Below, one piece after another: positions 30,388 through 35,580 of a stretch of DNA of 64,000 nucleotides. Within the stretch, counting starts at the first letter, position 1. Every line of letters starts with the position of its first letter. Below the pieces are notes generated by a model. It was given only the letters and a program-made list of their open reading frames with translations, did no database searches and was not told the origin of the DNA. The stretch covers positions 62,001-126,000 of the forward strand of contig CAMQWJ010000004.1 of NCBI GenBank assembly GCA_947038515.1, read 5' to 3'. Source of the stretch: an uncultured Fusobacteriaceae bacterium (lineage in GTDB: Bacteria > Fusobacteriota > Fusobacteriia > Fusobacteriales > Fusobacteriaceae). The position numbers and the translations under genes are program-made.

Positions 30388-31932
30388 TTATCCTAAAATC
30401 TTCTTAAGATCATCTTGTGGTATCGATATTGGTGTTAAGTTAAATTTTTCAACAAGAACATTCAAAATATTAGGTGAAATAAATGATGGTAATGACGGAC
30501 CAACAAGTATATTTTTAATCCCCAGTGATAGAAGTGTTAGCAGTACACAGACTGCTTTTTGCTCATACCATGAAAGGACTAAAGTTAATGGTAACTCATT
30601 TACCGTACATTCAAAGGACTCTGATAATGCAACCGCTACTTTAATTGCACTATATGCATCATTACATTGCCCCATATCCATAATACGAGGAAAATCTCCA
30701 ATTGTTCCAATATTTAAATCATTAAAACGATATTTTGCACAACCAAGAGTCAGAATTATTGTATCCTGAGGAGATTGTTTCACAAATTCAGTATAATAAT
30801 TTCTTTCATTTTTTCTTCCATCACAACCACCAACAAGGAAAAAATGCTTAATATCTCCTTGCTTTACTGCTTCAATTATTGCATCTGCAACACTTAAAAT
30901 AGCTCCGTGTGCAAATCCAGTTGTCATAGTTGTACCACCTCCATTAATTCCTAACATTTCATGAAGTTCCTTGTATCCACCAAGTTCAAGTGCTTTTTCA
31001 ATAATTATTGAAAAGTCCTTATTATCATCAATATGACACATATTTGGATATGCAACAACAGATGTTGTGAAAATTCTATCTGAGTAGTTTTTAAGAACAG
31101 GCATAATACAATTTGTTGTAAATAATATAGGGGCTGGAATATCTATAAATTCTTTTTGCTGTGCATGCCATGCAGAACCAAAATTCCCTTTTAAGTGTCC
31201 ATATTTTCTCAATTCTGGATAGCCGTGAGCTGGTAACATTTCAGAGTGGGTATAAATATTAATTCCTTTACCTTCCGTTTGATCTAAAAGAAGTTTTAAA
31301 TCATGTAAATCATGACCTGTTACCACAATAAATGGACCAGGTTCAATATTACAGTTTACTAACTGCGGGCTAGGTGAACCATAAGTAGAGATATTTGCAC
31401 TATCTAGTAATTCCATACACTTTAAATTTATACTCCCGGTTTCCATAACAAGAGATAGTAGTTCCTCAGAACTCAGATTTTCAGATATTGCAGACAGACC
31501 TTTGTAGAAGAATGTATTAACTTCTTCACTTTTTTTTCCAAGAATAGATGCATGATGTGCATATGCAGCTACACCACGTAATCCAAATAGTATTAAAGAC
31601 TTCAAAGAACGAATATCCTCATTACTTGTCCAAAGTGTATCCATATCCACTCTGTTAATATCTAAAATTCCTATTTTCTTAATTTTATTACGAAAATTTT
31701 CAATAAAATTGTTATCAAAATTCACATTTGTAACAGTAATAAAGAGCCCTTCGATTAAAAGTTTATCTGTCTGTGGAGTATTTTTTCCTTTAAAAGTCAC
31801 AGCAAGAGCAATAAGATCGCTCGTTAGATCATCTTGAAGATTTGCTGTATCCGATTTTTTCCCACACACCCCATTTACTGTGCATCCCTTTCCATTATCA
31901 GTTTCTTCGCATTGAAAGCAAAACATTGACAT
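30388..31932 (-). CDS. hcp: Hydroxylamine reductase / hybrid cluster protein
   Basis: A 514-residue Hcp. The N-terminal cysteine set is C5, C8, C17 and C23 (MFCFQCEETDNGKGC then GVC), which binds a [4Fe-4S] or [2Fe-2S] cluster. The hybrid cluster ligands appear in CGGTTMTTG-like NGGGTTMTTGFAHG, GGCDGRKNERNYY, TLGCAKYR and GQCNDAYSAI. Hcp reduces hydroxylamine and nitric oxide, in nitrosative-stress defence. ATG at 31932 after AGGAGGAATAA. It follows a ferredoxin-type gene and is controlled by the divergent Crp/Fnr regulator (inference). Confidence 0.94.
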   Translation of the reverse strand: MSMFCFQCEETDNGKGCTVNGVCGKKSDTANLQDDLTSDLIALAVTFKGKNTPQTDKLLIEGLFITVTNVNFDNNFIENFRNKIKKIGILDINRVDMDTLWTSNEDIRSLKSLILFGLRGVAAYAHHASILGKKSEEVNTFFYKGLSAISENLSSEELLSLVMETGSINLKCMELLDSANISTYGSPSPQLVNCNIEPGPFIVVTGHDLHDLKLLLDQTEGKGINIYTHSEMLPAHGYPELRKYGHLKGNFGSAWHAQQKEFIDIPAPILFTTNCIMPVLKNYSDRIFTTSVVAYPNMCHIDDNKDFSIIIEKALELGGYKELHEMLGINGGGTTMTTGFAHGAILSVADAIIEAVKQGDIKHFFLVGGCDGRKNERNYYTEFVKQSPQDTIILTLGCAKYRFNDLNIGTIGDFPRIMDMGQCNDAYSAIKVAVALSESFECTVNELPLTLVLSWYEQKAVCVLLTLLSLGIKNILVGPSLPSFISPNILNVLVEKFNLTPISIPQDDLKKILG

Positions 31933-31987: not shown

Positions 31988-32698
31988 CTAAACTTCTAAT
32001 ATCTCCCCATCAGTTGTAAGTGTCACAACCTCCCATGGTATTAATTTCCCACAATCTTTCAATGCTGATATAATCGCATTTTCAAGACCACCACAACATG
32101 GTACATCCATGCGTACAACTGTCACTGTTTTTATATTATTGTTTGTAAGCACTTCAGTTAATTTTATAGAATAGTCAATATTATCTAACTTTGGACATCC
32201 TATTAATGTTATCTTATTTCTCATAAATTCTTGATGAAAATTACCATAAGCATATGCTGCACAGTCAGCAGCAATAAGAAGTTTTGCACCATGAAAATAA
32301 GGAGCATTTTCTGGTACAAGTTTTATTTGTACAGGCCACTGATTTAAATTTGTGGTAATTGTTTTAAATTCTTCAGATATTCCACTAACTATTTTTTCTC
32401 TTTTAATTGTCTTAGAATTTTTACCAGGACAACTAAATGGAATGTTCTTTACTTCTTTTTTATCAACTAATATATCAGGTAAAACTTTTTCATTAGATCT
32501 ATTAACTTCTTTTTCAACAAAACTAATTGCATTAGTAGGACAAACTGGTAAACAATTCCCTAGTCCATCACAGTAATCTTCACGTAAGAGAGTTGCTTTC
32601 CCTTCAACCATACCTATTGCACTTTCTTTACAAGCATTTACACAAAGACCACACCCTACACATTTTTCTTTATCAATTGTAATAATTTTTTTTATCAT
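31988..32698 (-). CDS. 4Fe-4S ferredoxin-type protein, probable Hcp electron donor
   Basis: A 236-residue protein. The N-terminus carries one canonical ferredoxin cluster motif, CVGCGLCVNACKE, and a variant second, CDGLGNCLPVCP (near 43-54). The C-terminal half contains SCPGKNSK and cysteines in AADCAAYAYG, GCPKLDN and VPCCGGLE, a pattern of extra redox centres. In other anaerobes such genes sit directly upstream of hcp and are coregulated; a role as reductant for Hcp is inferred. ATG at 32698 follows GGGAGGTTCAAC. Confidence 0.85.
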   Translation of the reverse strand: MIKKIITIDKEKCVGCGLCVNACKESAIGMVEGKATLLREDYCDGLGNCLPVCPTNAISFVEKEVNRSNEKVLPDILVDKKEVKNIPFSCPGKNSKTIKREKIVSGISEEFKTITTNLNQWPVQIKLVPENAPYFHGAKLLIAADCAAYAYGNFHQEFMRNKITLIGCPKLDNIDYSIKLTEVLTNNNIKTVTVVRMDVPCCGGLENAIISALKDCGKLIPWEVVTLTTDGEILEV

Positions 32699-32712
32699 AA
32701 GTTGAACCTCCC

Positions 32713-32769
32713 TTGTATTTACAAATTTATTATAGTATACTTAACATAATAAGTATGTTGTAACTACAA
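32713..32769. promoter_or_regulatory. Paired Crp/Fnr-type operators in the hcp/regulator divergent promoter
   Basis: Two 12-bp palindromes of the form TTGTA-N2-TACAA: TTGTATTTACAA (32713-32724) and TTGTAACTACAA (32758-32769), 45 bp apart. Between them is ATACTTA-N6-TAAGTAT (32737-32756). On the minus strand TATAAT lies at 32729-32734 with a poor -35 region. A start site 7 nt past it would put the 32763.5 operator centre at about -41.5, the class II activation position. Confidence 0.72.
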
Positions 32770-32783
32770 CAAAAGAGGTGGCT

Positions 32784-33437
32784 ATGAAAGAAATTTTTGA
32801 TATTTTAAAACATAATGATTTATTTAACGGAATAATATTAAGTGATTTTGAAAAAATGATTACTTGTTTATCTCCAATACGAAAAAAATTTAATAAAGCA
32901 GAGACTATTTTAAATACTGGGGATAGAGTCGATTGTATATATATTATTTTATCTGGTTCAGTTAAAGTAGTGAAAAACACCATAGATGGGAAAGAAAATA
33001 TTCTTACAGAATTATCTACTTCTGAAATTTTTGGAGAGGTCTTTTCTTGTGCAAATATTTTACATAGCCCTGTTACTGTTATATCTTTAGGAGAAAGTGA
33101 AGTACTTTTTCTAGATTATAAAAAAAGTATTACTTCTTGTCAATCCATATGTTCCTATCACTCAAAATTAATATTAAATATGCTTAAACTACTTGCTAAC
33201 AAAAATATTATGTTACATCAAAAGATCGAACTTATTTCAAAACGGACAACAAGAGAGAGGTTATTACTGTATTTTGATCTTAATCGGGGCCTCAAAAAAA
33301 AATTTACAATACCCCATAATCGTGAAAATCTTGCATCCTATCTTTGTGTAGATAGAAGTGCCATGTCAAATGAGTTAAGTAAAATGCAAAAAGAAGGGAT
33401 TATTAAATATAATAAAAATCAATTTGAGATTTTATAG
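32784..33437 (+). CDS. Crp/Fnr-family regulator, HcpR-like
   Basis: A 217-residue regulator. The N-terminal cyclic-nucleotide-like beta-barrel is visible (NTGDRVDCIYIILSGSVKVVK; ILTELSTSEIFGEVFS). A long dimerisation helix follows (MLKLLANKNIMLHQKIELIS), then the winged-helix domain with the recognition helix VDRSAMSNELSKMQKEGII. No Fnr-type cysteine cluster is seen, though several cysteines occur (residues in SCANI and TSCQSICSYH). It is divergent from the ferredoxin-hcp pair, which is the arrangement of HcpR regulators that sense nitrosative stress. The ATG at 32784 is favoured over GTG at 32778, which overlaps the AGAGG site. Confidence 0.85.
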   Translation: MKEIFDILKHNDLFNGIILSDFEKMITCLSPIRKKFNKAETILNTGDRVDCIYIILSGSVKVVKNTIDGKENILTELSTSEIFGEVFSCANILHSPVTVISLGESEVLFLDYKKSITSCQSICSYHSKLILNMLKLLANKNIMLHQKIELISKRTTRERLLLYFDLNRGLKKKFTIPHNRENLASYLCVDRSAMSNELSKMQKEGIIKYNKNQFEIL

Positions 33438-33476: not shown

Positions 33477-34577
33477 ATGTCATATGTTGAAAAAATTTTT
33501 GAAAGACTACATGATGTTCCAGAAAGAGGATTTGAAGAATTTAAAACCTCTAAAATTTTAGCAGAAGAATTAAAAAATTTAGGCTATGAAGTATTTGAAA
33601 ATGTTGGAAGAACTGGTGTTCTAGGAATTCTTGATTCAAAAAAAGAAGGTCCAACTCTCGCTCTTCGGGCAGATATGGATGCTTTGGAGTTTGTTATTGA
33701 TGGAGAAATAAAAAATATTCATGCTTGTGCCCATGATGCTCATAGTGCCATAGTTTTAGCTACTGCCAAAAATTGTAAAGAACTAGGTCTCAAAAAAGGA
33801 AAACTTAAAATTATATTTCAACCTGCTGAAGAATTAACTGGTGGTGCTCTTGAAATGATGAAAGATAAAAGATTAGGTAAAATAGATGAAATTATAGGAT
33901 GCCATCTAAGACCAGTTGAAGATATGAAATTAGGAGAAGCTTCTGAGGCTGTTTATCATAGTGCAACAGTTCAGATGCAATATAAAATAACTGGGCTTTC
34001 TTCCCATGGTGCTAGACCACACCTTGGTATAAGTGCATTAGATGCTGCAGTTATTGCAACAAATGCTATTAATGCTATAAGAATTAATCCTGCTATTCCA
34101 CACTCTATAAAAGTTACTAATATTTCTGTTGAAGGAAGAACATATAATAAAATTCCTTCTGAGGCGACTATAGCCTTAGACTTAAGAGCAGAAACTAATA
34201 ATATTATAGAAGAAATAAAGGAAAAAGTTAAAAATGCAGTTACATATTCAGTTAAATCAATAGGAGCTAGTGCAGAACTTATTGGTTTTGGGGAAGTTAT
34301 TGCTGCAGAATATGACAAGGAAATTATAGAAAGTTGTAAAGAGGCCATTATAAATGTTTTAGGGAAAAGTTTTGGAAAATTATATAATTATGGTGGTGAA
34401 GATTTTCATTATTTTAGAAGAGATTTAAATTGTAAAGCATCATATATTGGAATTGGAGCAGAGGCCTCTCCAGGATTACATCATGAAAAAATGACTTTTA
34501 AAATAGAAGCACTTGAAATAGGTGAAAAAATCATGACAGAAATTGTAAATATTCGACTTGGATTAGGTAAAAAATAA
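33477..34577 (+). CDS. M20-family amidohydrolase (aminoacylase/hippurate-hydrolase type)
   Basis: A 366-residue di-metal hydrolase. It carries LHDVPERGFEEFKTS, ALRADMDALEF, CAHDAHSAIVL, FQPAEELTGGA and ITGLSSHGARPH, the M20D pattern, with ligands in HDAH and the base in PAEE. Members hydrolyse N-acylated amino acids, hippurate or p-aminobenzoyl-glutamate. ATG follows AAGGAGGAAAT. It lies 39 bp after the Crp/Fnr gene and may be cotranscribed. Substrate is unknown. Confidence 0.9.
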   Translation: MSYVEKIFERLHDVPERGFEEFKTSKILAEELKNLGYEVFENVGRTGVLGILDSKKEGPTLALRADMDALEFVIDGEIKNIHACAHDAHSAIVLATAKNCKELGLKKGKLKIIFQPAEELTGGALEMMKDKRLGKIDEIIGCHLRPVEDMKLGEASEAVYHSATVQMQYKITGLSSHGARPHLGISALDAAVIATNAINAIRINPAIPHSIKVTNISVEGRTYNKIPSEATIALDLRAETNNIIEEIKEKVKNAVTYSVKSIGASAELIGFGEVIAAEYDKEIIESCKEAIINVLGKSFGKLYNYGGEDFHYFRRDLNCKASYIGIGAEASPGLHHEKMTFKIEALEIGEKIMTEIVNIRLGLGKK

Positions 34578-34758: not shown

Positions 34759-35100
34759 TTATTCACTTTTCATTTTTAAATATCTTTTACATTGTTGCTC
34801 TGTATTGTAACCTAAAAGTACACCTAATATAAAATCTTCTTCTGGTGAATATTTTTTTAATGAATCTTTACTAAATCTTTTTAAAACCTCTATCGGTTCT
34901 TTTGTTCCAAAAAAAATATTCACATATTTTTCTTCTAATTCTTCCACTAAAAACTCATAGTTACATTTTTCTAATCTTTCTTTCACAATCTCTAGATTAT
35001 CTGGGGTAGTTGTAAGAAGAGCAAGATTTCTAAGACCTTTATTCAACTCATAAATCATATGAAAAAAAACAGCTAACTCCTTCCCTTGTTTATTACTCAT
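34759..35100 (-). CDS. DUF2023 family protein, flavodoxin partner
   Basis: A 113-residue soluble protein. FFHMIYELNKGLRNLALLTT, VNIFFGTKEP and SPEEDFILGVLLGYNTEQQCKRY match the DUF2023 family. These genes regularly accompany flavodoxin in anaerobes; function is unknown. It starts 3 bp after the flavodoxin stop, so the two are cotranscribed. Confidence 0.82.
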   Translation of the reverse strand: MSNKQGKELAVFFHMIYELNKGLRNLALLTTTPDNLEIVKERLEKCNYEFLVEELEEKYVNIFFGTKEPIEVLKRFSKDSLKKYSPEEDFILGVLLGYNTEQQCKRYLKMKSE

Positions 35101-35103
35101 AGC

Positions 35104-35580
35104 TTACCTTACACTCTCAATCCATAATTTTATTCTTCCATCAGTTAAATTACTTTGATTATTTTCATCTATTACAAGACCTAAAAAATCTCCATCTAAA
35201 ATCCCTGTAGAGTTTGAATATGAGTAACCATCTGTGGATGTTTGACCTATTAAAGTTATTCCTTTATCTTTTATTTCTTCATAAATAATCCCAATTCCAT
35301 CTACAAAACTATCTCCAAAAGATTCTTGATCTCCAACTCCTATAAAAGCAACTTTTTTTCCAGTTAAATTCTTTGTTTTTAATATCTCTAAACCTTCTTG
35401 CCAATTATCTTGTAAATCTCCCATTCCCCATGTAGAGGTTGCAAATATAGCTATATCATATTCTTCAACTTTAGAGATTTCTGCTACTTCCATAACATCA
35501 GCCTTTAAAAGAGTTCCCACTCGATTTGCTATATCTTCTGTAATTCCTGTTGTGCTTCCATAAAAAATTCCTATTTTCAT
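35104..35580 (-). CDS. fldA: Flavodoxin
   Basis: A 158-residue long-chain-type flavodoxin. The FMN-phosphate loop is FYGSTTGITEDIA at the N-terminus. The isoalloxazine-contacting parts are ATSTWGMGDLQDNW and GVGDQESFGDSFVDG, with the tyrosine-bearing loop STDGYSYSN. A low-potential electron carrier that can replace ferredoxin. ATG at 35580 follows AAAGGAGAT. It has its own consensus promoter and is followed by DUF2023. Confidence 0.93.
   Translation of the reverse strand: MKIGIFYGSTTGITEDIANRVGTLLKADVMEVAEISKVEEYDIAIFATSTWGMGDLQDNWQEGLEILKTKNLTGKKVAFIGVGDQESFGDSFVDGIGIIYEEIKDKGITLIGQTSTDGYSYSNSTGILDGDFLGLVIDENNQSNLTDGRIKLWIESVR

Follow-up and report, generated by a model that had tools for sequence, protein, structure and literature searches.

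At class II promoters of E. coli CRP, the operator is centred at -41.5 and overlaps the place of the -35 element. The HcpR regulon, its link to frdX-hcp and the Ser181 variants of the regulator were described in 2004-2005 by Rodionov and others, and the text of these reports already predicts hcp-frdX activation in Desulfovibrio from site position (PMC545781, PMC1274295); Ser181 members of HcpR2 with other motifs are listed in PMC1274295. In C. difficile, according to the text of PMC12915319, nitric oxide (NO) raises frdX and hcp about 200-fold in the wild type, a response that an hcpR mutant lacks. For D. desulfuricans HcpR2, the text of PMC5701242 draws a repressor model in which NO damage to an iron-sulfur cluster abolishes DNA binding, and it describes the hcpR2 gene as unresponsive to NO. 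The heme ligand of P. gingivalis HcpR is Met68, as stated in the text of PMC12750200. Bidirectional promoters are called ubiquitous, and their control wholly uncharacterised, in the text of PMC12825309, where CRP, placed at -40.5 in a bidirectional promoter of E. coli, stimulates transcription in one direction and prevents it in the other, and where bound regulators sometimes let transcription transit unhindered.

Organization of the frdX-hcp/hcpR locus

The locus lies in the window, by which we mean the whole 64-kb stretch of DNA analysed, and consists of frdX and then hcp, both on the minus strand, divergent from hcpR, with a palindrome between. The hcpR gene (32784-33437, plus strand; ATG at 32784, Shine-Dalgarno sequence by eye at about 32774-32781) encodes a Crp/Fnr-family regulator with PF00027 (cNMP-binding, 60.5 bits) and PF13545 (Crp-type HTH, 32.7 bits) domains, both above cut-off. 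Ferredoxin-like protein is encoded by frdX (31988-32698, minus strand; Shine-Dalgarno sequence by eye at about 32707-32711), and hybrid cluster protein by hcp (30388-31932, minus strand; TIGR01703, 667.8 bits versus a cut-off of 360.8). An M20 amidohydrolase gene (33477-34577) starts 39 bases past hcpR and may be cotranscribed with it, and a flavodoxin gene adjoins a DUF2023 gene at 34759-35580 on the minus strand.

The intergenic gap between frdX and hcpR measures 85 bases and contains two exact TTGTA-N2-TACAA words, TTGTATTTACAA at 32713-32724 and TTGTAACTACAA at 32758-32769, 45 bp apart from centre to centre. These words flank a minus-strand TATAAT, as an earlier note on this DNA had observed, and are the sole exact matches in the window. 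The conserved operator is broader than the 12-mer described in that note: the predicted HcpR operator, TGTTGTAACTACAACA, occupies 32756-32771, with its core GTTG-N6-CAAC at 32757-32770.

Comparative set of HcpR loci

Named records provided eight HcpR loci, of which the closest (82% identical) comes from a MAG named Spirochaetia, six (52-57%) come from MAGs named Clostridiales, Defluviitaleaceae and Oscillospiraceae, and one is a fragment. A search of the genome's own phylum recovered HcpR relatives in 13 of 98 genomes (E of 1e-22 or better). In the class of the genome carrying locus L017, Clostridia by name, 141 of 291 genomes had matches at 1e-25, in 150 places; 30 and a further 80 of these places were taken in as loci and 40 were left out. 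Altogether 160 loci were entered, with an HcpR match in 146.

The operator was located by its own letters alone, the -10 being ignored, and a GTTG-N6-CAAC word with at least 7 of the 8 bases was found upstream of the regulator in 101 of the 146 loci. Alignment was possible for 36 of the 45 loci without this word, and 19 of them carry Arg-Pro in the recognition helix. Two subsets were defined: a nonredundant set of 62 loci (HcpR less than 65% identical; L016 excluded, its protein being cut at a stop) and a set of 86 loci in which no more than 35 nt separate the operator from hcpR. Of 100 aligned GTTG-site loci, 75 show a divergent frdX or hcp; for many of the 100 the sequence reaches just about 400 nt upstream.

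Several individual loci depart from this arrangement. Four from the own phylum (L026 and L056-L058) keep the operator and the divergent -10, yet no divergent frdX or hcp was detected within the available stretch. In two loci from MAGs named Spirochaetia, hcpR has an in-frame stop and lacks an ATG start (L016, 1387-2037), or a deletion fuses the 3' parts of frdX and hcpR (L023, 2697-3171); these two loci are decaying or misassembled.

Class II spacing toward frdX-hcp

The minus-strand -10 of frdX-hcp, TATAAT at 32729-32734, stands exactly 22 nt from the 14-base operator core, and this distance is conserved. At offset 22, at least 4 of the 6 TATAAT bases are matched in 91 of 101 loci and at least 5 in 79; in the nonredundant set the corresponding counts are 54 and 48 of 62. 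The nonredundant mean at this offset is 4.85 of 6, versus 2.97 for the best value at any offset in 1000 mononucleotide shuffles. The exceptions, with fewer than 4 of 6 bases, number 10 of 101 and include the near relative L021. In 10 own-phylum loci the layout differs, the operator being 32-47 nt upstream of hcpR, and in 9 of them the divergent -10 is retained at this distance. The spacing also recurs in loci without a GTTG word: a different palindrome of GT...AC type stands in 13 of the 36, with a -10 of at least 4/6 at 22 nt in 9 of them, a figure that is somewhat flattering since ties between palindromes were resolved in favour of the -10.

A distance of 22 nt from the 14-base core corresponds to 29.5 bp between the -10 and the centre of the operator, which is therefore at -41.5. 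In the window, with the frdX-hcp start predicted at 32722 on the minus strand, 7 nt downstream of the -10, the predicted operator centre at 32763.5 lies 41.5 bp away (32763.5 - 32722). A -35 at a 17-nt spacer reaches 4 of 6 bases in just 2 of 101 loci. The earlier note had claimed a class II activator geometry, with the centre of the hcpR-proximal palindrome at about -41.5 from a predicted start and no good -35 accompanying the TATAAT; the spacing and the missing -35 are supported, the spacing by its recurrence in 91 of 101 loci. The distance from operator to -10 thus fits a class II Crp/Fnr promoter. Sequences, spacing and conservation are observed directly, and the start itself is predicted.

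A predicted opposed hcpR promoter interlocked with that of frdX-hcp

Facing the frdX-hcp promoter is a plus-strand promoter for hcpR, with -35 TTGTAT at 32713-32718, a 17-nt spacer and -10 TATACT at 32736-32741, the latter separated from the opposite-strand frdX -10 by a single base. The predicted hcpR start at 32748, placed from the -10, is 26 bp from the predicted frdX start, which puts the operator centre at about +16 of hcpR. Both elements are widely retained: the -10 (at least 4/6) in 79 of 101 loci, ending 15 nt before the operator core at a plus-strand peak, and the TTGACA-like -35 (at least 4/6) in 64 of 101, ending 38 nt before the core, again with a 17-nt spacer. Across the 86-locus set, TTG occupies the -35 place in 69 loci, the hexamer being TTGACT in 31 and TTGATT in 19, and the consensus reads ttt.TTGa.TTt.t......AttaTA.TAtAaT.aa...aaaAa.TctGTTG.attT.CAAC.

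The left half of the palindrome at 32713-32724, TTGTAT 17 bp ahead of TATACT, is read as the hcpR -35. The earlier note had suggested that this palindrome may mediate autoregulation; with its left half serving as the -35 and the palindrome nearly absent elsewhere, that assignment is not supported. Its two-site interpretation therefore holds in half, retaining the class II spacing and the missing -35 and losing autoregulation through the 32713 site. Judged from the sequences, autoregulation would be better explained by the operator at 32757-32770, at about +16 of hcpR.

Genome-wide distribution of the operator words

The genome-wide search for TTGTA-N2-TACAA that the earlier note had proposed was carried out and gave 7 exact sites in the 1.78-Mb genome, versus 2 for a reversed control pattern; the 5 sites outside the locus all lie inside open frames. 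Searching the window at up to 2 mismatches gave 88 matches, versus a shuffle mean of 95. Being no commoner than in shuffles at that level, the word carries weight only as an exact match, and conservation was accordingly taken as the test.

The core word GTTG-N6-CAAC occurs 32 times in the genome, and all 32 occurrences were inspected. Open frames of at least 90 aa (with an ATG start, or running off the stretch) contain 28 of them; the 4 outside such frames are the hcpR operator, one in a confirmed tRNA-Ala gene, and two others. Only the hcpR operator has a -10 of at least 5/6 at 22 nt on either side, the best match at that distance among the remaining words being 4/6. None of the other 31 words is operator-like, hence no sign of a regulon beyond frdX-hcp was seen among them, and the regulator seems to serve the frdX-hcp/hcpR locus alone. 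The genome has a second, longer hcp (L054, contig C10:258-1904), on a contig whose start resembles, by eye, the end of a 5S rRNA gene. No HcpR palindrome occurs in the first 400 nt of that locus, which include 257 nt before the match.

Possible sensor residues, DNA specificity and descent of HcpR

Profile search placed Listeria Lmo0753 first (E = 2.2e-26) and P. gingivalis HcpR (PDB 9DAY) second (2.2e-20). In the profile alignment, Met68 of P. gingivalis HcpR falls on Lys64 of the window's HcpR, the numbering offset of 14 having been fixed by matching Ser72, Lys74 and Gln75 as named in the text of PMC12750200. In this residue the protein differs from heme-sensing HcpR of the P. gingivalis type. 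Met is not among the six commonest residues at position 64, which account for 87 of 100 GTTG-site HcpRs, and it occurs there in 2 of the 36 HcpRs from non-GTTG loci. Four other residues, Cys28, Cys119, Cys123 and His126, are all present in 106 of 136 aligned HcpRs, all absent in 19 and mixed in 11, a pattern suggesting that they form a single site, which may be an iron-sulfur cluster.

In the recognition helix, the window's HcpR has Arg-Ser at residues 180-181. Residue 185 (CRP numbering) covaries with the fifth operator base across the 86 loci: Arg accompanies C in both halves in 33 of 33 cases and Asn accompanies T in both halves in 20 of 23, while Ala is found with G, A or T and a single Lys with C. 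On the tree, this covariation amounts to 1 independent change on well-supported branches and 6 on all branches; with such thin support for independent changes, shared descent may underlie it.

A quick tree of the 86 HcpRs, which contains no named HcpR2 members, groups the window's HcpR with six others (SH-aLRT 99): five are from MAGs that bear Clostridia names, and the sixth came from the class search. The regulator of a same-genus genome lies apart on this tree and is 43% identical to the window's HcpR. Horizontal gain of hcpR is likely.

A proposed two-way switch

We consider it likely that the intergenic region acts as a promoter in both directions and contains a single HcpR operator, which would turn frdX-hcp on and hcpR down when HcpR is activated. 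HcpR binding, activation, autorepression and the signal are what we infer from the sequences. In unstressed cells, polymerase would transcribe hcpR at a basal level from its standard promoter (TTGTAT-N17-TATACT), and the opposed frdX-hcp promoter, with its good -10 and no -35, would be nearly silent. Once a signal, most likely nitric oxide, has activated HcpR, the dimer on 32757-32770 would touch polymerase at -41.5 and switch frdX-hcp on. Expression of hcpR would be lowered in two ways: the dimer would cover about +10 to +23 of hcpR, and polymerase at the frdX promoter would keep polymerase off the interlocked hcpR promoter, since the predicted starts are divergent and 26 bp apart, so that two polymerases should not fit together. 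Autorepression could be weak, as bound regulators do not always hinder transit in the promoters described in the text of PMC12825309.

More tentatively, and with rather less confidence than in the switch itself, we propose a single-operator toggle conserved in Clostridia and the own phylum. In it, HcpR would be a class II activator of frdX-hcp and a self-repressor through competition and steric block, giving a self-limiting NO response, with a Cys3His (possibly iron-sulfur) sensor and no Met68 heme.

Alternative explanations

In the two-site model, the regulator binds both palindromes, activating hcp from the hcpR-proximal one and controlling itself from 32713. Both words are exact and the window holds no others; moreover, the 32713 palindrome recurs at its aligned place with at most one mismatch in 4 of the 86 loci (exact in 1), versus a mean of 0.23 in column shuffles, in which 4 was reached in 1 of 5000. 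It is absent, however, from the other 82 loci. The word at 32713 lacks the operator's outer G and C, reading C...A there, its left half is already accounted for as a -35, and its right half is broken in the 82%-identical relative L016. TACAA stands at the aligned right half in 7 of 86 loci versus 1.2 expected from column frequencies, an unexplained excess. We regard the two-site model as unlikely; TTGTATTTACAA is probably not the main operator, and an accessory site at this palindrome in a few lineages is possible.

Two other readings differ from the two-way switch in the role given to HcpR or to the -10. As an iron-sulfur repressor, HcpR would silence frdX-hcp and release it when NO destroys the cluster, which is the model published for D. 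desulfuricans HcpR2 in the text of PMC5701242 and which the nearly all-or-none Cys3His set would suit. Nevertheless, the site lies upstream of the -10 at a constant class II distance and there is no -35 for it to cover, and the C. difficile hcpR mutant loses both expression and induction of frdX-hcp according to the text of PMC12915319; we consider a repressor of this kind distinctly unlikely. Finally, the ATTATA-N-TATAAT block might serve only the hcpR promoter or another regulator, leaving the divergent -10 incidental. Being near-palindromic, the block gives TATA on each strand by symmetry, and a second minus-strand peak does accompany this symmetry at offset 17. That peak is lower than the one at offset 22 (77 versus 91 of 101 loci). 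Moreover, 7 of the 10 own-phylum loci carry a perfect hcpR TATAAT on the operator's other side and 6 of these 7 keep the divergent -10 at 22 nt, which argues against a by-product of the hcpR promoter and makes an incidental -10 highly improbable.

Comparison with known systems

If the two-way switch is correct, it would represent natural control of a bidirectional promoter, with fixed geometry, in many bacteria and tied to nitrosative-stress defence, and it would speak against a pure repressor model for the window's HcpR branch; the Cys3His set gives a testable handle on sensing chemistry. No published report of the interlocked layout, or of an operator at about +16 of hcpR, was found, figures and most subscription papers lying outside the scope of the search. 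As far as the literature was searched, three things are new: a class II spacing that is exact to the base across these bacterial groups, an hcpR promoter that interlocks with that of frdX-hcp and has the operator at about +16, and the Cys3His residues.

The closest known system is the HcpR regulon in its HcpR2 branch (Clostridia and others), for which the text of PMC1274295 likewise describes a Crp/Fnr regulator beside frdX-hcp, a palindromic operator and predicted control of hcp. Ser181 in the recognition helix is shared with the HcpRs of C. difficile and C. thermocellum, as given in the text of that report. Its common HcpR2 motif is GTAACnnnnGTTAC, whereas the motif here is GTTGY-N4-RCAAC. 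The window's protein, with Arg-Ser at 180-181 and a GTTG motif, differs from the HcpR2 definition of GTAACnnnnGTTAC plus Pro181; judged by its sequence, it is HcpR-like, and the published motif for Ser181 proteins may be the same as GTTGY-N4-RCAAC. P. gingivalis HcpR (PDB 9DAY) is also a Crp-type protein with hcp as a target, but its heme ligand Met68 is replaced by Lys64 here, and Cys28, Cys119, Cys123 and His126 are conserved instead.

The predicted -41.5 operator centre is common to this locus and E. coli CRP class II promoters, from which the locus differs in operator sequence, in the likely signal and in the second position of the predicted site, about +16 relative to the promoter of the regulator itself. 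With the bidirectional promoters in the text of Warman and others (2026, PMC12825309) it would share opposed promoters so close that polymerase can use only one, and an activator of one direction that can repress the other. Those promoters have a shared -10, and the CRP versions are semi-synthetic; here, by contrast, each direction has its own -10 with one base between the two, 26 bp separate the predicted starts, and the arrangement occurs naturally and is conserved.
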